A stretch of DNA of 64,000 bases from an uncultured Clostridiaceae bacterium (GTDB taxonomy: Bacteria > Bacillota > Clostridia > TANB77 > CAG-508), in NCBI GenBank assembly GCA_949927585.1, contig CATLFA010000001.1:81795-145794 (forward strand). Reading direction: 5' to 3'. The notes under the pieces were generated by a model. The model worked only from the letters and a program-made list of their open reading frames with translations. It searched no databases and had not been told where the DNA came from. Positions 18,381 through 58,265 of this stretch are shown in pieces. A program made the translations under genes and the position numbers. Each line of letters begins with the position of its first letter. The first letter of the stretch is position 1.

Positions 18381-18801
18381 TTAAGTATTTATTCCTACTC
18401 CGTTAACATTAATCCTATACCATCCACCATAGCTATTTACATTTGGTCTATAAAATACATTTCCATCTGTTAACATATATATTTGCCAATTCCAATTTGA
18501 TAAATCAGAAGCTTGCCATCTATATGGTCTTGAATTAATAACTATTAATACTCCACTATAATTAGTTCCTGCTATCTGTGGAGAATTTACCCATTTTTCA
18601 CTTACCCAATAAATTCCGTGGAAAAGTATAATTATTAAAATTTTTGTCTGATGTATAAAATACATTATCATAGTGAAATGTTAAAGAAGGTAGTATGCTT
18701 GTTAGTGTTGAATAACTCCCAGTTGAAAAGATAGGCTTTCTACAAGCAATTCCATCTGTACTTAAATAATTATTGTTTTTAAATTTAAAACTCTTACTCA
18801 T
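18381..18801 (-). CDS. short fibre paralogue (needs +1 shift at CGG 18616-18618)
   Basis: MSKSFKFKNNNYLSTDG...NNYTFP-(C)-GIYWVSEKWVNSPQIAG... Confidence 0.75.
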
Positions 18802-18822
18802 TTTTCATTTATATGTTAAAGA

Positions 18823-19221
18823 TTATGTAATATTTAATTTAGTTATTGTAGTAGTATGATATATTGATGGATAATCTATTTGTAATGTTATACCATTTGT
18901 TAATGTTGCAGTGAATCCAGAATCTGCATATATTTGTCTAACTTTACCAGTATTAGATGCTGTTTGACCACAGAAGACAATCCAAATTGCGTGGCTATAA
19001 ATATTTGAATTTCCAACATTACTAGATGTCACTAAGTATGTTCCAAATCCACTTAATGTATATGTTTTTTGTGTTTTCTGGTCATAATCATAAGCCTGTT
19101 GTTTTCTAAATATCCAATTCATAATTGATTTTAAATCATATATATGGTTTTCTGTTGTTTTAAATACTATACTACTACTATCTAAATAAATATTGCTTTT
19201 AAATTTAATTGATTTACTCAA
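18823..19221 (-). CDS. short fibre paralogue (TTG start)
   Basis: MSKSIKFKSNIYLDSSSIVFK leader. Confidence 0.75.
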   Translation of the reverse strand: MSKSIKFKSNIYLDSSSIVFKTTENHIYDLKSIMNWIFRKQQAYDYDQKTQKTYTLSGFGTYLVTSSNVGNSNIYSHAIWIVFCGQTASNTGKVRQIYADSGFTATLTNGITLQIDYPSIYHTTTITKLNIT

Positions 19222-19339
19222 TTAAATCACCCCTAACATATTGAACCTCCTTTCTTGGAGATTCAAAGCAGAAAAAAGAAGAGAGATTAAACTGCCCTTC
19301 TCCTTTCTGCAAAAATATTGGAAATATGGTTGTACCATA

Positions 19340-19349
19340 CCCCCCCCCC
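19340..19349 (-). repeat. poly-G tract (G10 on minus strand) in leader ORF
   Basis: 10 consecutive C on + strand. Confidence 0.9.
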
Positions 19350-19434
19350 AGATATAGGGATTATTGTTTGTAATGGTTTATTCATATTCTACAAACTTAT
19401 TATTTACTAAGAACTGATTTTTATTTTATATTTA

Positions 19435-20184
19435 TTATGCAGTACGTTTCCATACATAAACAGTTATATATGGAGGCATATTTGTATGTGATTTTCCACC
19501 TCCAGCATTAGCAGTATTACCACTAGCTGCGCCACTATTAAAAGCTGTGCTATTTGCAGTATTTCCTGATGCTTTTCCACTATTAAAAGCCGTACTATTT
19601 GCCGTATTACCACTAGCTGCGCCACTATTTGTTGACGTTGTAGATATTGTATGACTATGTCCTTGCCCTCTATCATTTTTGCCATATCCATTTTCATAGT
19701 TTCCCCATCCACTTAAACCACTTGCCCAATTATGGTTTCCTGCACTATTGGTTCTTTCCTCCCTTACAACTGCGGATACTGGTAAATGTTGTGCCGTAAT
19801 CGCAAATGAACCAGTATTAGCATTTGATTTTGCATAAGTGTGTGTATGACTATTTAAACCGTGGGCGTGCGCTCCTACACTATGCACGTGTTCATTTAAT
19901 CCGTGACTGTGTGCTCCTACACTATGTGTATGGCTATTTAAACCGTGTGCGTGTGCTGGTATTTGGTCTGTTGTTAATGTTACAGATGCACTACCTCCTG
20001 TGGTATTCTCTTTATATGTATCTCCGACTGCTAATAAGAATTTATCTTTTAATCTTTCCCAAGTACCACCAAAATAAGTACTTGGATTTATATTAGTTAT
20101 GTTCATATAAATACTTCCTACTGGAAAGTATGGATGTACATAATATTTTTCAGTTCCTTTTTTTAATTGTATTGATTTACTCAT
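19435..20184 (-). CDS. fibre with His-rich HxH repeats (tail collar-like)
   Basis: MSKSIQLKKGTEKYYVHPYFPVGSIYMNITNINPSTYFGGTWERLKDKFLLAVGDTYK; HAHGLNSHTHSVGAHSHG. Confidence 0.85.
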   Translation of the reverse strand: MSKSIQLKKGTEKYYVHPYFPVGSIYMNITNINPSTYFGGTWERLKDKFLLAVGDTYKENTTGGSASVTLTTDQIPAHAHGLNSHTHSVGAHSHGLNEHVHSVGAHAHGLNSHTHTYAKSNANTGSFAITAQHLPVSAVVREERTNSAGNHNWASGLSGWGNYENGYGKNDRGQGHSHTISTTSTNSGAASGNTANSTAFNSGKASGNTANSTAFNSGAASGNTANAGGGKSHTNMPPYITVYVWKRTA

Positions 20185-20217
20185 CTTTATTATTTTAGAG
20201 TACGATATTATTTTAAT

Positions 20218-20844
20218 CTATTTTGTCCTCTTCCAAGCATATATAGCTAGAAAAGGAGGCATATTTGTATGTGACTTACTACCACCAGAATTTGCCGTAT
20301 TTCCAGATGCCCCTCCAGTATTTTGATTGCTCCTTCCTATTCCGTGAGTGTGTCCCTGTCCTCCTCCTGCACTTGCTATACCTCCAAAATTATCTGCACT
20401 TGCACTTGTTCCATCTCCATTTACAGCAATATTTGAAAATGCCCTAGCATTATTAACTGGTTCTCCATATGTAGTACCAGCAAAGTTCCTCCAAGAAATT
20501 ATTGTATGTTTATGACTAGGAATTTCATTTATAGTTAAAGTATGACTATTTGTATTATCATTACTTCTACTATAACTGTGTGTATGACTATTCAATCCGT
20601 GAGCGTGTGCTGGTATTTGGTCTACTGTTAATGTTACATTTTCACTTCCACCTGTTTTACCTGCTTTATATGCTTCGACACTATCATTAGCACATAATAA
20701 AAATTTACCTTGAATCCTTTCCCAAGTTCCTCCAAAATAAGTTGATGGATTAACATTGGATGTACTTAAATAAATATATCCTATTGGAAAGTAAGGATAT
20801 GGATAATAATATTCTGTGCCTTTCTTAAATTTTATAGATTTCAA
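20218..20844 (-). CDS. fibre with HxH repeats (tail collar-like), TTG start
   Basis: MKSIKFKKGTEYYYPYPYFPIGYIYLSTSNVNPSTYFGGTWERIQGKFLL. Confidence 0.85.
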   Translation of the reverse strand: MKSIKFKKGTEYYYPYPYFPIGYIYLSTSNVNPSTYFGGTWERIQGKFLLCANDSVEAYKAGKTGGSENVTLTVDQIPAHAHGLNSHTHSYSRSNDNTNSHTLTINEIPSHKHTIISWRNFAGTTYGEPVNNARAFSNIAVNGDGTSASADNFGGIASAGGGQGHTHGIGRSNQNTGGASGNTANSGGSKSHTNMPPFLAIYAWKRTK

Positions 20845-20966
20845 ATAATATCACGAGGTACTCTATATAGTACCTCCTTTGCTCCAAAATACGAAAGAAG
20901 GAAACCTATTAATAAATAATAAGTCTTCCTCCTTTCGATATAATTTTTGAGGTCTTGCAGCCCCTT

Positions 20967-20977
20967 CCCCCCCCCCC
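20967..20977 (-). repeat. poly-G tract (G11)
   Basis: 11 consecutive C on + strand. Confidence 0.9.
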
Positions 20978-21083
20978 AAGTATAGACACTTTTGTATCCA
21001 TAGAAGGAGTATTTATTTTATTTTGAATATTCATAATATGATATTCAATACTCTTTAATTTATTTGTTTATTTATTTAAAATA

Positions 21084-21761
21084 TTATTTCTCTTTCATTA
21101 AATATGTTACATTAAATATATACACATTTCCTACAGCTCCAGTATTTGTAATTGTATTTTCTACTTCTAAAGTCCCAGAATTATTAAAAAATGCAATTCC
21201 ATCTATAGTATATCCACCTGTAGAATAAGGTACTCTCATTGTATGGCTTAGTTTTGCTCTATATTTATTTTTTATTACTCCAACACTCTGTGCTGTATTC
21301 TTTTTTGGAACGTTATTGAAAACTAATCTTTGAATATTTATCATATTTCCTATTTTATAAATATATGCAGATTCTATATTGAAATTTGTAGAAGTGAAAA
21401 AATCAGATGGATTTATTAATTCATATGTTTCTTCCATTATTTTATTTCCTGTCTTAAAATTGTATATTCCTCCATTACTACAAACATCTAATCTTCCTAC
21501 AATTTGACCATCATTATTATTGTCAACTAATTCTAATGCAACACTACTAAGATATTCTGTTGTCCCAAATCCTAATTCTGGATTACCATTTCCTAATTTT
21601 GCAGTATAAACCTTGTTATTATGTTCATTTTTCCTCTTTCCAGATATGATTATAAAATCTGTATTATATGCAATATTATTTAATGTTGTATTTTCTCTTT
21701 TAATCCAAATACTACTTGTATCTAAATAAACATTATTCTTAAACTTAATTGATTTTGCCAT
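21084..21761 (-). CDS. short fibre paralogue
   Basis: MAKSIKFKNNVYLDTSSI leader. Confidence 0.75.
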   Translation of the reverse strand: MAKSIKFKNNVYLDTSSIWIKRENTTLNNIAYNTDFIIISGKRKNEHNNKVYTAKLGNGNPELGFGTTEYLSSVALELVDNNNDGQIVGRLDVCSNGGIYNFKTGNKIMEETYELINPSDFFTSTNFNIESAYIYKIGNMINIQRLVFNNVPKKNTAQSVGVIKNKYRAKLSHTMRVPYSTGGYTIDGIAFFNNSGTLEVENTITNTGAVGNVYIFNVTYLMKEK

Positions 21762-21846
21762 AATATTTACAGCCAATGATATTTATTTATATATCTAATA
21801 ACATCATTATTATAATATTTTTTATAACCGTTCTAACTAAATATTT

Positions 21847-22338
21847 TTAATATACTGCTTGAATTACAATAGCCTTCTGATTTCTCAATGTAGTTTTAAT
21901 GAGCACTCTACCACTTGAATATATCATACATAATGCTGGATTCATTCCACTACTATATAACCATTCAGGATAATCATAATTTTGAGTAGTATAACAACCA
22001 ATTAATGGCATTCCATTTCCTTTTGTTTTTGCATATTTTGTAGGTATTATACAGCAAGGAGTACTATCATTGTCTATAATACTTGGTAATCCAGTTTTCG
22101 TTCTTAATATTATTGATAGGAATGTCATATTACCTATTTGTTTTGCATATGCACTAAATATCTCTATATCGTCCACCAAAATAGTTGATGTTAAATTTTT
22201 ATATATCTTCAATGGTTGTACTTCATTTTTTATATTTATATAATCTTGTGTTAAATACTTGTCTAATGTCATATGGTTATATACTACACTACTACTATCT
22301 AAATAAATATCATTTTTAAATTTAAAACTTTTCGCCAT
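21847..22338 (-). CDS. short fibre paralogue
   Basis: MAKSFKFKNDIYLDSSSVVYNH leader. Confidence 0.75.
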   Translation of the reverse strand: MAKSFKFKNDIYLDSSSVVYNHMTLDKYLTQDYINIKNEVQPLKIYKNLTSTILVDDIEIFSAYAKQIGNMTFLSIILRTKTGLPSIIDNDSTPCCIIPTKYAKTKGNGMPLIGCYTTQNYDYPEWLYSSGMNPALCMIYSSGRVLIKTTLRNQKAIVIQAVY

Positions 22339-22362
22339 AGTTTTTTAATTAGGTATTAATGT

Positions 22363-22905
22363 TTATATCAATTTTTTAACATATACTGCTGTTCCGCTTG
22401 GAAGAGTAGTTCCAATAGGAACACAACTTGTAGTAACTTTACCAAAATTATCTTCTGGTCGTAATTTTGTTATTGATAATATGTTTATTGCTGGAGAGTT
22501 AGAACCTTCCATTTTATAAAAAACTTGAACCTGATTAGTATTTGTTACAACTGCAACTAATTTAGTTGTAATATCAACATAACCTGCTAAATTTTGAAAA
22601 AAATTAATACAATTAAATGAATCTATTCGTAATTTATCATTAGTTGTTGCTTTATGAACAAATAGATTAACTAGATTTGATGTATTATTATTTTGAGTAT
22701 CTGTTAACATAAATAATACATTACATTGCTTATGAATAGCGCTAAAATCTAATGTAAATAATCTACACCAACTACCGATTACTGTATCTTCTCTAACTTT
22801 CCCATATTTATAATTATCTATAATATCTTGTAAATTTTCTCTTCTATATGTTACCGAACTACTATCTAAATAAACATTGTTCTTAAATTTAATCGACTTA
22901 CTCAA
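22363..22905 (-). CDS. short fibre paralogue (TTG start)
   Basis: MSKSIKFKNNVYLDSSSVTYRR leader. Confidence 0.75.
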   Translation of the reverse strand: MSKSIKFKNNVYLDSSSVTYRRENLQDIIDNYKYGKVREDTVIGSWCRLFTLDFSAIHKQCNVLFMLTDTQNNNTSNLVNLFVHKATTNDKLRIDSFNCINFFQNLAGYVDITTKLVAVVTNTNQVQVFYKMEGSNSPAINILSITKLRPEDNFGKVTTSCVPIGTTLPSGTAVYVKKLI

Positions 22906-22990
22906 TTAAATCACCACCTAATTTATACCTCCAATCCACAAAAGATTTGGAAGTATAGGAGTTGGCGTCAGCCTTAAATTTATTGGCTGA

Positions 22991-23000
22991 CCCCCCCCCC
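22991..23000 (-). repeat. poly-G tract (G10)
   Basis: 10 consecutive C on + strand. Confidence 0.9.
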
Positions 23001-23109
23001 AACTATAGTTTCTCTATTGAATACAATACTAAACAAATAAATAACATTAAAGAATATTGATTCTCCTTTCTTTAAAAGTTTAGTATTGTTTATAAAGGTA
23101 GGTCGTAGA

Positions 23110-23119
23110 CCCCCCCCCC
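23110..23119 (-). repeat. poly-G tract (G10)
   Basis: 10 consecutive C on + strand. Confidence 0.9.
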
Positions 23120-23214
23120 AACATAAGAAACATATGTTGAGTTTATTTCATTGTGTTTGTTTTGTTCCATAATATATTTTTAATATATTATAAAGTTTTA
23201 TTGGTTTTGTATAT

Positions 23215-23589
23215 TTATCTTATTTCGAACCAAGTTCCCCATTTTTTACTTTCTATATGTGTTCTCATCCATAATTTTCCTCTACTTGGAGAAACAATAA
23301 ACTGAACTCCATATATTGTAGAACAGAATTGAAAAATTATTCCATATTCGTTTCCAATTAATGGGTTATTAATATATTCTCCAGTATAACCACTAAAGGT
23401 ATATATTCCATTTTTATCATATTGATTAAAACAAGTATCCTTTCCTTGATAATGCCCTCTATATATCATTCCATATTTTAAAAATTGGTTCAATATATTA
23501 CTTACACTATCTCTACTTTCACCCATTTTATGAATTATTGATTGAGAATCTAAATATACACTATTTTTAAACTTAATTGATTTTGCCAT
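23215..23589 (-). CDS. short fibre paralogue
   Basis: MAKSIKFKNSVYLDSQSI leader. Confidence 0.75.
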   Translation of the reverse strand: MAKSIKFKNSVYLDSQSIIHKMGESRDSVSNILNQFLKYGMIYRGHYQGKDTCFNQYDKNGIYTFSGYTGEYINNPLIGNEYGIIFQFCSTIYGVQFIVSPSRGKLWMRTHIESKKWGTWFEIR

Positions 23590-23617
23590 ATTTATATAGC
23601 TATTTTAAAATGATTAT

Positions 23618-23995
23618 TTAGAAAACAAAGGCGTGAGCTGTTACAGCTTCAGAAAAATTAAATGTTATCTTATTATCTCCTGTTACAACATTAGCTGTAA
23701 AATAATCAGAACTTTTATCATATATCTTTACATAGTGATATCCACCTGTAGTTGATGCTCCACCTTTCCATATAAAAGCTACAAGACAATTATTAACAAT
23801 AACTAGTGCGTGTTGTGGACTATATATTGGGAAAGAAAAAGTCTTCGCCCAACCATTATCTATTGTAAATCCACGAACTCGATTTTGTATTCCAGAATCC
23901 ATTTTATATAATTTATCTTGTAAATTTTCTCTATGATACATTATACTACTACTATCTAAATAATAATCATTTTTAAATTTAAAACTTTTTGCCAT
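23618..23995 (-). CDS. short fibre paralogue
   Basis: MAKSFKFKNDYYLDSSSIMYHR leader. Confidence 0.75.
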   Translation of the reverse strand: MAKSFKFKNDYYLDSSSIMYHRENLQDKLYKMDSGIQNRVRGFTIDNGWAKTFSFPIYSPQHALVIVNNCLVAFIWKGGASTTGGYHYVKIYDKSSDYFTANVVTGDNKITFNFSEAVTAHAFVF

Positions 23996-24025
23996 AATAT
24001 TTTATGCTAGTATATTAAATAATAT

Positions 24026-24409
24026 TTATAAAATAACATTTAATTTAAACATATTACCTCTACATTGTACTCCTGTTGCAACTACTCCAGTTAATACTCT
24101 AGTTGTAAAATCATAAGTAAATTTTGGCATAGCTAAGTCTTCACTTTTGAAAATTACATCTACGTGAAATATTTTAACATCATCATTTACTGAAATTAAT
24201 GCAACTGCTCTTTTATAACAATGAGCATTTATAAATAGATAACTACCCCAAGCATCTAATGTCCAAGTTTTTGTTTGCCCATCACTGATATATGGAAGCA
24301 TTCTTGTTGCAAATCTATTACCTATTATTGATGAAAGCAATGTTCTTCCATACATAATACTATTGCTATCTAAATAAACATTATTTTTAAATTTGATGGA
24401 CTTATTCAT
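24026..24409 (-). CDS. short fibre paralogue
   Basis: MNKSIKFKNNVYLDSNSIMYGR leader. Confidence 0.75.
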   Translation of the reverse strand: MNKSIKFKNNVYLDSNSIMYGRTLLSSIIGNRFATRMLPYISDGQTKTWTLDAWGSYLFINAHCYKRAVALISVNDDVKIFHVDVIFKSEDLAMPKFTYDFTTRVLTGVVATGVQCRGNMFKLNVIL

Positions 24410-24632
24410 AAGACCACCTCTTTATACTAACATTGAACCTCCTTTGTAAGAGATTCTTTAGAGTGGCAAGCTTTAAATAAATAGCCTGCCCCCCCCCCCA
24501 TCTATAGGTATTTTTTAAGTATCTATTAATAACCATTAAAACTTTAGATAATATATTATCTCCTTTCTGTTTTAATTGGTTATTTTGTTGAGAATGAGGT
24601 CGTAGACCCCCCCCCAAGTATAGACACTTCAT
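24402..24632 (-). CDS. leader ORF spanning two poly-G tracts and overlapping next fibre start
   Basis: MKCLYLGGGLRPHSQQNNQLKQKGDNIL...YRWGGGQAIYLK...SYE*, stop TAA overlaps ATGAATAA of 24026-24409. Confidence 0.45.
   Translation of the reverse strand: MKCLYLGGGLRPHSQQNNQLKQKGDNILSKVLMVINRYLKNTYRWGGGQAIYLKLATLKNLLQRRFNVSIKRWSYE
24489..24499 (-). repeat. poly-G tract (G11)
   Basis: 11 consecutive C on + strand. Confidence 0.9.
24607..24615 (-). repeat. poly-G tract (G9)
   Basis: 9 consecutive C on + strand. Confidence 0.9.
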
Positions 24633-24686
24633 ATAATTTATTTCTTTTCATATGAAACATCCTTTCTAATATTTTAATTTTGTTGA

Positions 24687-25244
24687 TTACCAACTATCAA
24701 CTTGCTCATACTCTAAAGTACAAACATTTCCAAAAGCTCCTTTATTACAATATGCCAAATTAGAGTTTGTTCCACTATATGCTCCATTCCAATAACTCAT
24801 AAATGACATATCAGGAACTTTTGTCCTCTCTGCTGTTGTACTCCATCCAGTATCTGTTGCAGCAGAAGCAGTCTTTACAGTTCTTGTTGCAGCATTTCCT
24901 AGACTAAGAGCACTTCTAAAGTTTGCAACATCATCGAATTGATATGTTAAGGTTCCAGCTTTATTCATAAATAAATGTATTCCTTTTTGAGCAACCATAG
25001 TTCCAGCTGTGTCATAATTTCTAACATACCAAAAGCTTCCTATTCTTCCATCACTAGTTATCAAGCCCTCTTGTCGTACAATTATATTTTTATTTTTATC
25101 ACATATTGAATTTATAGATGGATATTGTGTACTAGATACTCCATTATCAGCAGCTTTTGCATCTATGGTATTCCATATTAAATTTTGTAATCCATCTATT
25201 ACATTAAGACTTCCAGTGACTTTAGTACTTTTTAAATTTGCCAT
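24687..25244 (-). CDS. fibre protein
   Basis: MANLKSTKVTGSLNVIDGL leader related to 56663 and 57641 ORFs. Confidence 0.7.
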   Translation of the reverse strand: MANLKSTKVTGSLNVIDGLQNLIWNTIDAKAADNGVSSTQYPSINSICDKNKNIIVRQEGLITSDGRIGSFWYVRNYDTAGTMVAQKGIHLFMNKAGTLTYQFDDVANFRSALSLGNAATRTVKTASAATDTGWSTTAERTKVPDMSFMSYWNGAYSGTNSNLAYCNKGAFGNVCTLEYEQVDSW

Positions 25245-25274
25245 ATCTCACCCTCCTTTTTAAAGGGTATTGAG

Positions 25275-26091
25275 TTAAGCAACTCTTCGCCAAAAATAAA
25301 CTACGATATAAGGTTGTAAATTATTATGAGCCGTACCTGAACCAGTATTGCTATTTGTTCCTGATGGCGTGGCATTCCCACTATTGAATGCAGTACTATT
25401 AGCGGTATTACCGCTAGCTGCGCCAGTGTTCTGACTAGTTCTTCCTATCCCGTGCGTATGACCTTGACTTCCTCCTGTAGATGTTATAATATCCGTTGCT
25501 GTTCCTGTTTTATTTGAGCCAGCAGAAATCCATTCCGATGTTCCTCGTGCAGCGGTTTTAGCCCAAGACCATCCGTGTATATGTGCTGGTATTTGGTCTA
25601 CAGTTAAAGTATGACTATTTGTGTTGTCATTACTTCTTGCATAAGTATGAGTATGCGAATTAAGCCCGTGAGCGTGCGCTCCTACTGAGTGTGTATGTGC
25701 AACTCCAGTAAAAGTATGAGTATGTGATGCCAAGTTAGCAACACTTAGAACAACTGATTTTTCTCCACCAGTAGCGTTTACTGTTTTAAAATTATTGTCA
25801 TTACTATCCAACCCTACTAATACTTTCCCTTTTCCATACTGCTCCCAAGTTCCAAATCCTAAATAATCTGCTGGATTTGTACCTGAAGTATTAGTAATAA
25901 TTCTTCCTACATAATATCGTTTTTTATTGTTTTCTAAAATTTTCTGATTTACTAGATTGATAATATAATCGGCAAGAGCTACCAGACCCCCCCCCATCAT
26001 CTATATTAATGGTTGAAGAAGTAATAGTATCTGTGATTATATTACCAACTTTTAAATTATTTTCTATTATTGTATCTTTTAATCTTGACAT
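25275..26091 (-). CDS. HxH-repeat fibre split by G9 tract (out of frame in this consensus)
   Basis: MSRLKDTIIENNLKVGNIITDTITSSTINIDD-poly-G-LVALADYIINLVNQ...; G8 would restore one frame. Confidence 0.75.
25987..25995 (-). repeat. intragenic poly-G tract (G9)
   Basis: 9 consecutive C on + strand. Confidence 0.9.
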
Positions 26092-26117
26092 AACTATTAC
26101 CTTCCTATATTAATTTT

Positions 26118-28026
26118 CTATAAAGTCGTTCCTGTATTTTCTGTTAGTTCATTACAGTTAAATACTCCTGTGTTACTTAATGTTCCAACTACTGTACCTG
26201 CAATTACAAATTCTATTTTGTTTGTTGTTTCATTATATCTAATTAATGTATCCTTACCTTTTAATGAAACTTGATTATAAAAATTACTTTCTACTAATTG
26301 ATATCCAGCTCCATTATATACAAATTCATATATTGTACTTCTTTGTAAAAAATTTGCAGGAATTGAATATCCTCCACCAAATGTTACTGCCTTTGCTCCA
26401 GTATTATTTACATTTAGTGTCATTGAACCAGAAGTATCAACATATGAGAAACTTACTGCAATTCTTGCTCCAGAGACTAATGTAAATCCGAGGACAACTT
26501 ACAGTTTTTGCAGCTGTTGCAGCTGCTGTAGTACATTGTCCATAATGTATTATATCAGCACTACCATTAAAACTTACTCCATCTATTTTTCTAGCTGTTG
26601 TTAAAGTTTTCGCACTATTAACATTTTTATTGGCATCAGCTGTATTATCAACATTCGTTAATCCAATACTAGATTTTGTAAGAACTACTGCTCCAGTTTC
26701 CCCATTAACTGATGTTACAGTACCAGAACCCAAAGAACTGTCATTAATAATTGAAGTCCAAGCATTTTTTGTTGAATTCCATATATACATAACTTGGTTC
26801 TCTCCAACTATTGCATAATCACCATTCGTCCCTGTACCAGTTGCCGCTAATGCCGCAGCTGTTGCAAAATATCCTTTGTAATGATTTATATTTGTAATTT
26901 GAGCTGACGATATAATATCTGATGTTATTATTTCACTATATGGTGTCCACACTAATGTCCCACTATTATTGTAGACTTTTCTAAAATACATATGTTTGTT
27001 TTGATGATGAGAATCATAAGCTATCCAAATTTGTGTTCCAGTTTTTTTAGAAACTCCTTCCGAAACAATAACTACCCAATAATTACCTTGGAAACCAAGA
27101 ATTGTTCTTGGCAGATTTCCTTCATATATACCTGCTCTCAAATCGAATCCGTCAGCTTCAGCTGCTGTAATTTCTCCTCTATTTGCCTTATTATCCTCTA
27201 AAGTATCAATATCATCTGCGTTTGTTTTTATGTTATTTTTATTTGTTGTAATTTGTGTTTGTAAACTACTTATATCTGTATTAGTTGCAACCTCTTTAAA
27301 TTCTGACCATATGCTAGTTTCAATAGTTGCTCCATTTCTAAATCTAAAATACATATGTAAAGGCTTATTATATTCGTAACTTATCCATATTTGTGATGCA
27401 GAATATATATTTCCTCCACCATAATTTTCTCCAACAATTACTATCCAAAAATTAGATGTAAATCCTAGTATCTCTTTTGAAACATTGTTCAAATCATAAA
27501 TTCCAGCTCTCAATGTAAAACCATCAGCTTCTGCTTCAGTAATTTTTTTTCTATCTGCTTTCGCATCCAAAGCTGTTTGTTGTGGCTTACTTACTGGTTT
27601 ATTAATATCTGCTGTATTATCTACATTTCCTAAACCTACATCTGTTTTCGTTAAAACTACTTCCCCAGTTCTACCATTAACACTAATTACTATACCTTGT
27701 TCAGTACTATTTAACCAACTATTGGTTGTGTCATCCCAAAGCCATACAGTATCTGTTGCTCCAACTATTGCATAATCTCCAACTTGTGGAGAAGCAACTC
27801 CTGCTGTTAAAGCAGACTCTGTTGTAAAATATCCCTTAAAATGTACTACTCTATTAAAATTTTGTCTATCAGCAGTTGTCCAGTGTCTAGTATCATCTGC
27901 TTTATGGTCATCTATACTTTTTTTGTTTGCGGCTATATTTGTTTTATTAGTCGCTATATTTGTTTCATTGGTAGCAACTTTTGCTTTTAAGTTGCTTAAT
28001 AAGTCTAAAATATATGGCATTGCCAT
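26118..28026 (-). CDS. tail fibre (needs +1 shift at CGG 26488-26490)
   Basis: ORFs join as ...TAAATAAKTVSCP-(C)-GFTLVSGARIAVSFSYVDTSGSMTLNVNNTGA..., a typical phage fibre C-terminal motif. Confidence 0.85.
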
Positions 28027-51514: not shown

Positions 51515-51524
51515 CCCCCCCCCC
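51515..51524. repeat. non-coding C10 tract
   Basis: 10 consecutive C. Confidence 0.9.
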
Positions 51525-56670: not shown

Positions 56671-57616
56671 TTTAAAAGATACTAAAATAGATGGGAAATT
56701 ATCAGTTACTGATGACGTAACGGTTCAAAAAGATATTAATATTGGGGGGGGTCTCTTATCAGACCATTTACCAAATAAACTCAATATAACTAATCAAGTA
56801 TATGCACAAAATATGATATATAAACCTTTTCAAAAATCTTTAGGTCAATATAAAGAAAAAGATATTGCTATAAAAATTGGAAATGTTACTATTAATTTAC
56901 ACACAATGATTACAATACGAGGACACATCCAATTATATAACTCATCTTTTGGATTTGAAGTATTTGTATATTTATATCCACAAAATCCTAATAATATTAA
57001 TATTTTATATAGTCCATATTGTTTTATCACAAATAAGAGTATAATTAGAGAAGTATATTTTGCATTAGATTCTAATAATCAATTATGGTTAATTTTTAAA
57101 AGTGCATCAGATATTAGAAGTATAAAAAATAACTATATAAATATTTTTATAGATGAATTATTTTTAGGATACCAAGATACAGACGATACAAAATTTTTAT
57201 CTGGATGGGATGCAAAAATGGTTGTAGATATGTCAGAATTTACATATATTCAACAATGTAAAGATTCATCTTTACCAAATTGGATTGACTTAAATTTATT
57301 AAATGGTTGGGAAAACTATAATAGTAATAATACTTATGATTCCTTACAATGTTGTTTAAAAGATGGAATTGTATATTGTAGAGGATTAATCAAACACCTT
57401 GAACTTGTTACAGAGGGTAAACATCTTATATGTTTACTTCCAGAAGGATATAGACCTATAAGGAATTGTATATTTTCTGTTAGAGCTGGAAATAAAACAT
57501 CTAATATTACATTAGATATTAGCCCATCAGGCTATATAGGTATTAGATATAGTGAGGTTGTAAATTCAAGTGTTTCTTGGGTATCATTAAATCAAGTAAC
57601 ATTTGCAATTAATTAA
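56663..57616 (+). CDS. tail fibre with intragenic G8 tract (in frame)
   Basis: MSNLKDTKIDGKLSVTDDVTVQKDINIGGGLLSDHLPNK. Confidence 0.75.
   Translation: MSNLKDTKIDGKLSVTDDVTVQKDINIGGGLLSDHLPNKLNITNQVYAQNMIYKPFQKSLGQYKEKDIAIKIGNVTINLHTMITIRGHIQLYNSSFGFEVFVYLYPQNPNNINILYSPYCFITNKSIIREVYFALDSNNQLWLIFKSASDIRSIKNNYINIFIDELFLGYQDTDDTKFLSGWDAKMVVDMSEFTYIQQCKDSSLPNWIDLNLLNGWENYNSNNTYDSLQCCLKDGIVYCRGLIKHLELVTEGKHLICLLPEGYRPIRNCIFSVRAGNKTSNITLDISPSGYIGIRYSEVVNSSVSWVSLNQVTFAIN
56744..56751 (+). repeat. intragenic poly-G tract (G8)
   Basis: 8 consecutive G. Confidence 0.9.
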
Positions 57617-57640: not shown

Positions 57641-58265
57641 ATGGCACAATTAAAAACAAGTAAAGTAATTGGAGATTTTTATGTTACAGGAAACACTAAT
57701 ATTGGTGGCAATGTAAATGTAGATGGAGATGTTATTATTCAGGGGGGGGGTCTCTAAGAGACTAACCGATTTAGAGAATAACTTTAAATATCAATCTGTT
57801 TATGGAACTGATATGTTTGGAAGAGTGGCAACTGAAGTAGCTAGATATTCTGCTGGAGCTACAATTGGATGGACTAAATTATTATCAGGTACAAAAGGAA
57901 CAAAACATTGGGATAGTTTATTCTTTTCTATTGTGCTCCTTGATACAGAACACAATAGAATAATGTATAGAATAACTTTTGCTGGTGCAAACGCAAATAA
58001 TGTTGGTTTTCTTGAAAGTGGAGTTTTTACAGTACATTCTTTAAATTCAACAACAATAAGAGATAATTTTCCAGCAAGTGGTTTAAAATTAATCTGTACA
58101 AATACTGGTTGGGAATTATGGGTAAAACCAAGCTCTACTTATATATGGCTATCTGTTATTACAGAATTTTGTACTGATGGTACTCGTGTTATACATACAG
58201 GGAAACCAACGCCACAAACAAATCCACCTACTGGATTGAAAGAATATACTGCTGTTGCAATCTAA
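57641..58265 (+). CDS. tail fibre split by G9 tract (out of frame in this consensus)
   Basis: MAQLKTSKVIGDFYVTGNTNIGGNVNVDGDVIIQGGGL* ; G8 joins it to VSKRLTDLENNFKYQSVYGTDMFGR... Confidence 0.75.
57742..57750 (+). repeat. intragenic poly-G tract (G9)
   Basis: 9 consecutive G. Confidence 0.9.

Follow-up and report, generated by a model that had tools for sequence, protein, structure and literature searches.

Here we describe a family of short leader sequences standing in front of fibre-like genes in a 64-kb window, the whole stretch of DNA analysed and the final part of a 145,794-bp contig (C1) binned into a 1.8-Mb draft genome. We propose, at a probability of about 0.77, that each leader is a switch that makes a phage tail-tip operon (of receptor-binding type) phase-variable through slipped-strand mispairing and translational coupling. 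The window holds four leader units (W1 to W4; Table 1), and protein and DNA-pattern scans of IMG/VR for relatives yielded ten additional phage contigs (L-numbers below) carrying a leader of the same architecture. In the proposed mechanism, a simple sequence repeat within a short leader open reading frame (ORF) would change its unit number through slipped-strand mispairing during growth. On the 3' side of this repeat, two predicted hairpins would bury GGAGG motifs ahead of the fibre start site, where a TTG start would usually lie inside a third hairpin. In one repeat phase in three (or one combination of serial tracts) the leader ribosome would cross the hairpins, unfold the start site and terminate over the fibre start codon, and translation of the fibre would then begin by re-initiation. 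A ribosome in any other phase would halt short of the start or around the loop of hairpin 1, leaving the start site closed or poorly used.

Long perfect repeats of short units, beyond chance expectation, were found both as the G/C runs of C1, which at about 30% G+C has 12 runs of 8-11 bases and none of 6-7, and as CA, AT, TATG and ATAC arrays in the relatives. Six of the 12 runs belong to the four window units. In the relatives the repeat is G7 (L010), G10 (L013), CA (L011, L012, L051, L052), AT (L044), TATG (L015, L053) or ATAC (L049), so that five repeat units occupy one equivalent place while the downstream design is kept. As assembled, W1 to W4 are all in an OFF phase, as are L011, L012, L013, L044, L053 and probably L015 (whose start is at the contig end); L010, L049, L051 and L052 are ON.

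The reading frames are the core of the argument. With translation traced from each leader start through every repeat phase, one phase (one combination with two tracts) in 14 of 14 leaders gives a leader ORF that runs through the hairpins to a stop codon overlapping the fibre start, at +8 (or +4); in each of the relatives a single phase ends at +8. An upstream stop overlapping a downstream start, the feature of translational coupling we looked for, is therefore present throughout, in the forms TTGAGTAA (W1, W3), TTGA (W2), ATGAATAA (W4) and also ATGGGTAG. This ON frame is open by chance in 3-15% of dinucleotide shuffles per leader, and in 44% for the short L010. In each of the 13 leaders tested, a stop codon 3-15 nt upstream of the fibre start closes the frame of the fibre itself; the leader is thus no N-terminal extension of the fibre, and a fusion is impossible.

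The remaining phases end at recurrent places. Where a leader has a single tract, translation enters hairpin 1 in all three phases, passes hairpin 2 in two and terminates on the start codon in one. The third-phase stop is located within the hairpin 1 loop or close to it, so every phase enters this hairpin and it cannot distinguish between them. The second-phase stop falls about 9-18 nt before the fibre start, mostly 11-12 nt (0 nt in W1), and in 12 of 13 leaders the second buried GGAGG-type motif sits 6-8 nt ahead of the TAG that forms this stop. In the two-tract units, the other phases of tract 1 stop at the foot of hairpin 1.

The leaders are unusually structured. Against dinucleotide shuffles their mean fold z-score was -4.28, compared with -0.46 (standard deviation 1.23) for 120 random windows of C1; 12 of the 14 ranged from -3.2 to -6.2, the exceptions being L010 (-1.4) and the leader of tract 24489 (-1.7). 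GGAG/GGGGG motifs within leaders had a mean pairing of 0.965, with 88% above 0.8, compared with 0.41 and 9% for 75 Shine-Dalgarno (SD) sites upstream of C1 ORFs, a difference whose rank-test p of 1.6e-13 overstates its significance because the leaders are not independent. TTG-type starts have a third small hairpin (GATTTA-ATTGAG-TAAATC), and in untranslated leaders the start codon is predicted to be paired at 0.5 or above in 10 of 12. A search of Rfam gave no gathering-level match in L011, L013, L051 or L053, and only below-threshold matches in window positions 18500-26200.

Both stems covary across the related leaders. Hairpin 1 has 93.3% of alignment cells paired (87% in shuffles), three pairs with two-sided changes and a covariation score of 0.311 against 0.190, with 0 of 500 shuffles as high and at most 0.156 when the partner arm was slid. 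The corresponding values for hairpin 2 are 90% paired, four pairs with two-sided changes and 0.395 against 0.263, with 0 of 500 shuffles as high and at most 0.165 when slid. These figures come from partly related sequences aligned as ungapped arms with loops trimmed to 4 nt, since MAFFT of whole leaders misaligned hairpin 2, and such anchoring favours structure; the per-sequence z-scores are independent of this choice. Hairpin 2 of W2 and the first hairpins of W3 and W4 were excluded from the counts.

These results bear on an original prediction, made from the letters alone, that conserved minus-strand hairpins bury Shine-Dalgarno sequences in an attenuator gated by poly-G length. The stems it had placed at these tracts are present and appear in minimum-energy folds, and its idea that RNA folding is conserved despite differing sequences survives the covariation analysis, whose failure it had named as refuting. 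In detail, the pairing it had given near tract 22991 exists in a longer form, TATACTTCCAA/TTGGAGGTATA, which pairs GGAGG itself; the second hairpin of unit 20967 exists in an inverted form, with GGAGG in the 5' arm; and the AAAGGAG of unit 24607, said to be buried, is paired only about half (0.52). The GGAGG-type motifs are indeed buried, lying some 25-35 nt and 70-95 nt ahead of the start of the fibre gene; they are not the fibre's own SD, an AGGTGG-like site at about -13 to -8. The small third hairpin at TTG-type starts was not part of the earlier prediction. The reading frames of every leader agree with the predicted gate by repeat phase, which is not specific to poly-G, since CA, AT, TATG and ATAC substitute for it. 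We regard that earlier reading as right in substance.

To follow what each phase opens, a ribosome footprint was masked at each stop and the leader then folded. A ribosome at the third-phase stop is predicted to open hairpin 1 but to leave closed hairpin 2 and, where the start is TTG, the start hairpin; one at the second-phase stop, to open hairpin 2 (W1 excepted); and one at the ON stop, to free the start codon fully, with hairpin 2 re-formed behind it. The earlier idea that a ribosome in the right phase melts the hairpins agrees with an ON ribosome passing both, yet hairpin 1 is entered in every phase of single-tract leaders and does not discriminate. Since two phases cross hairpin 2, which can re-form, and one alone reaches the start, the decisive element would be the stop/start overlap. 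On these models the buried SDs would not be what an ON ribosome releases for the fibre. For the hairpins, our preferred reading is that of putative locks against free ribosomes initiating in the leader or at the fibre.

A more elaborate version, which we offer tentatively, is that this is a portable three-state ribosome gate, accepting any repeat unit and common to a large tailed phage and small siphophage-like contigs. Second-phase ribosomes might be held by the SD motif (a trap, giving a firm OFF) or relayed (giving an intermediate level), and serial tracts might act by AND logic; if so, two serial tracts would create a combinatorial tail-tip set within a phage population.

Comparison of relatives provides two natural variants. 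The 6148-bp alignment of L051 with L052 has 0 mismatches and a single 6-bp gap equal to three CA units, and they are the one pair of near-identical genomes with a change in repeat number; as three units preserve the phase, this is length instability and not a switch. L054 has a homologous fibre and upstream gene without a leader, 165 nt being missing between flanks that are 75% and 85% identical, which shows the leader to be a separable 165-nt cassette. In L045 and L048, too, the upstream gene is followed directly by fibres of this family. Near position 7839 of L054 the stop of the upstream gene is followed immediately by AGAGGTGGTTTAATTGGCTAAATC, the start hairpin also seen in the leaders, an arrangement suggesting that the fibre start may depend on coupling to whatever lies upstream. 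L015 and L053 have an additional small hairpin, followed by a T run, just after the TATG repeat and before hairpin 1 (GACGC-TTAC-GCGTC-TTTTT and GAGCC-TTAC-GGCTC-TTTTT); its stem pairs differ in a compensatory manner, and it is possibly a transcriptional element.

Several observations weigh against a coupling switch. The buried GGAGG motifs are away from SD distance of the fibre, the majority of window leader starts have no clear SD, and the start codon is predicted to be mostly unpaired in two ATG-start leaders, L044 and W4. The L051/L052 difference preserves phase, and no phase switch was seen. The second phase may also be partly ON, as its ribosomes cross both hairpins and stop just short of the start. 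To these are added about 6 T in 8 bases after hairpin 1 in L044, L053, L015 and L011-type leaders, and the small TTTTT hairpin right behind the repeat of L015 and L053, both of which would suit transcription attenuation of the S. gallolyticus Pil1 type, where the hairpin is an intrinsic terminator prevented from forming by the ribosome of a long leader. The overall design is indeed alike, a leader-peptide repeat with a hairpin downstream (PMC3894217), and L044 and L015 each have a single weak terminator-like match, at hairpin 2. We nevertheless consider attenuation unlikely: a scan of the window found no terminator-like site at hairpin 1 or hairpin 2 and just one elsewhere, at a poly-G hairpin (1.7 in shuffles), L011 has no such site, hairpin 1 would be melted in all three phases of single-tract leaders, and the stop/start overlap of all 14 leaders would be left without a role.

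The strong and conserved folds might alternatively act alone, either by binding a phage protein or as an RNA thermometer, with repeat phase irrelevant. We judge this improbable, given that a hypermutable repeat of varying unit lies in the same ORF every time with one phase always reaching the start codon, and that the homologous fibre gene of L054 does without leader and hairpins. Ordinary frameshift phase variation, with the leader a detachable fibre N-terminus and the ON phase a fusion, does seem to describe other G tracts of this phage (25987, 56744, 57742); for the leaders it is very improbable, being contradicted by the closed fibre frame and by an ON frame that terminates over the start codon. 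That the leaders are decaying remnants, or their repeats or lengths assembly artefacts, we scarcely credit. Homopolymer lengths in draft assemblies are error-prone, and W1 to W4 are each OFF as assembled; against this, separate contigs share an open ON frame and compensatory stem changes, and repeats of di- and tetranucleotides stand in the equivalent position.

Table 1. Elements of the four leader units, by window position
Feature	Position	Strand	Description	Basis
W4 leader ORF	24402..24651	-	ATG 24651; right phases lead to TAA 24404-24402 overlapping fibre start ATG 24409	phase analysis, folds
W4 tract 1	24607..24615	-	9 G; 8 or 11 required; OFF as assembled	
W4 hairpin 1	24527..24584	-	AATAACCAATTAAAAC...GTTTTAATGGTTATT enclosing AAAGGAG	fold
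W4 tract 2	24489..24499	-	11 G, in phase as assembled; then hairpin GGCAGGC...GCTTGCC	
W4 hairpin 2	24435..24456	-	GAATCTCTT-ACAA-AGGAGGTTC; buries GGAGG 24442-24438	fold, covariation
Fibre-like gene behind W4	24026..24409	-	MNKSIKFKNNVYLDSNS...	
W3 leader ORF	22898..23170	-	ATG 23170, crosses two tracts to TAA 22900-22898 overlapping fibre start TTG 22905	
W3 tract 1	23110..23119	-	10 G; 8 or 11 required; OFF	
W3 hairpin 1	23023..23089	-	ACAATACTAAAC...GTTTAGTATTGT enclosing AAAGGAG	fold
W3 tract 2	22991..23000	-	10 G; 9 or 12 required; OFF; then hairpin TCAGCC...GGCTGA	
W3 hairpin 2	22924..22957	-	TATACTTCCAA...TTGGAGGTATA; buries GGAGG	fold, covariation
Fibre-like gene behind W3	22363..22905	-	TTG start	
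W2 leader ORF	20841..21034	-	ATG 21034 or 21001 to TGA 20843-20841 overlapping start TTG 20844	
W2 tract	20967..20977	-	11 G; 9 or 12 required; OFF	
W2 hairpin 1	20892..20937	-	CGAAAGGAGGAA...TTCCTTCTTTCG	fold, covariation
W2 hairpin 2	20855..20876	-	GAGGTACT-ATATAG-AGTACCTC; inverted, SD on 5' arm	fold
Gp10_C-type collar/fibre gene behind W2	20218..20844	-		
W1 leader ORF	19214..19385	-	ATG 19385 to TAA 19216-19214 overlapping fibre start TTG 19221	
W1 tract	19340..19349	-	10 G; 9 or 12 required; OFF	
W1 hairpin 1	19268..19310	-	GCAGAAAGGAGAAG...CTTCTTTTTTCTGC	fold, covariation
W1 hairpin 2	19241..19266	-	TTGAATCTCC-AAGAAA-GGAGGTTCAA	fold, covariation
W1 hairpin 3	19210..19229	-	TGATTTA-ATTGAG-TAAATCA; TTG start codon in/at loop	fold, ribosome-footprint masking
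Fibre-like gene behind W1	18823..19221	-	TTG start	

The DNA of the window is judged to be that of a large tailed phage from its portal protein, a terminase large subunit match, tail and Gp10_C collar proteins and an integrase. Downstream of the leaders lie runs of short fibre-like genes, which share the N-terminus M(S/A/N)KS(I/F)KFKNxxYLDSxS, together with Gp10_C collar genes. The later fibre genes of each run (window 23995, 23589 and 22338, minus strand) have an ATGGC start, an A+T-rich upstream region and no visible SD, in contrast to the leader-headed first genes. In the small relatives the equivalent cluster is flanked by a DUF859 siphovirus tail-region protein and holin/endolysin genes, an interval that is the customary location of tail-tip proteins, and from the position and company of these genes we infer that the fibre-like proteins bind receptors.

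Four further G tracts lie within ORFs (25987, 56744, 57742 and C1:34327), where a single length yields a long fusion product; 56744 is ON as assembled and the other three are OFF. The tract at 25987-25995 (minus strand) has 9 G within a Gp10_C collar gene, where 8 G would join MSRLKDTIIENNLKV to the collar (277 codons) and 9 G leads to an early stop, a predicted case of direct frameshift phase variation. Those at 56744-56751 and 57742-57750 (plus strand) lie within tail-protein-like ORFs, the first open with its 8 G and the second having 9 and needing 8; with C1:34327 (9 G, needing 8) they are further putative direct phase-variable genes, 56744 being the sole one ON among those scored. A 10-G tract at 51515-51524 (minus strand) has AT-rich surroundings without a clear ORF (AAAGGGGGGGGGGTGGAGAGAGCGAAAGGTCG), and another at G000:C1:4237-4246 (plus strand) lies in a KIDGNLNVTG... 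ORF, with a maximum product over all phases of 109 codons.

Searches of phage records with two fibre proteins as queries gave no match, and DNA searches with the neighbouring regions matched only short stretches of other phages, with no cultured phage carrying the module found. A contig scan for GGTGRTTTAATTGAGTAA gave 25 matches, none with this fibre N-terminus downstream, and the motifs were absent from relative sets of 97 and 393 genomes, the window's own matches excepted. Literature searches found no phage system of this design, which is weak evidence of novelty since most subscription literature lay outside their scope. A randomising repeat switch is known from bacterial surface genes and was not found described in this form for phages. 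If our proposal is true, phages themselves, beyond their hosts, use repeat slippage to randomise tail-tip proteins via a compact RNA and reading-frame device. Ordinary sequencing data would reveal the state, which is encoded as repeat length modulo 3, making tail-tip switching in phage populations directly testable; annotation pipelines would overlook such leaders or label the genes constitutive.

The leaders combine elements of several known systems. In classical contingency loci, such as the poly-G tracts of Campylobacter and the short repeats of Neisseria and Haemophilus, slippage sets ON or OFF through the reading frame of a repeat within the regulated gene itself, whereas in the phage leaders the repeat lies in a separate upstream ORF that would act via termination at the start codon. 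In translational coupling, or termination-reinitiation, an upstream stop overlaps the next start and the start site lies in secondary structure; the same overlap is found here, and the difference is that coupling is ordinarily constitutive while the upstream frame of the leaders would be hypermutable. Population-level variety of receptor-binding proteins through tail-fibre variation is otherwise produced by invertases or diversity-generating retroelements, which need a recombinase or reverse transcriptase; the leaders would need repeat slippage alone and no dedicated enzyme. In H. pylori, a variable G repeat in the tlpB mRNA leader is reported to tune expression via pairing with the small RNA RepG (PMC8295292), a mode of action that differs from one through the leader reading frame.

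The nearest known system is the S. gallolyticus Pil1/Pil3 leader-peptide attenuator, which has a GCAGA repeat in a leader-peptide ORF and in which a longer leader melts a terminator (Danne et al. 2014; PMC3894217). Repeat number in Pil1 shifts the leader-ribosome stop relative to the hairpin and stochastically switches a surface-adhesion operon (PMC3894217). The phage leaders likewise carry their repeat within a leader-peptide ORF, and the position of its stop with respect to a hairpin shifts with the phase. Unlike Pil1, they have no terminator with a T run at hairpins 1 and 2 in the window or in L011 (weak matches occur in L044 and L015), and no phase that stops before the hairpin was found, the third-phase stop lying in the hairpin 1 loop of single-tract leaders or at its foot in two-tract ones. 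What sets the phage leaders apart is that their hairpins bury GGAGG, mostly without a T run, that the ON stop overlaps the next start codon, and that the repeat unit is exchangeable, may occur as two tracts in series and has a phage location.

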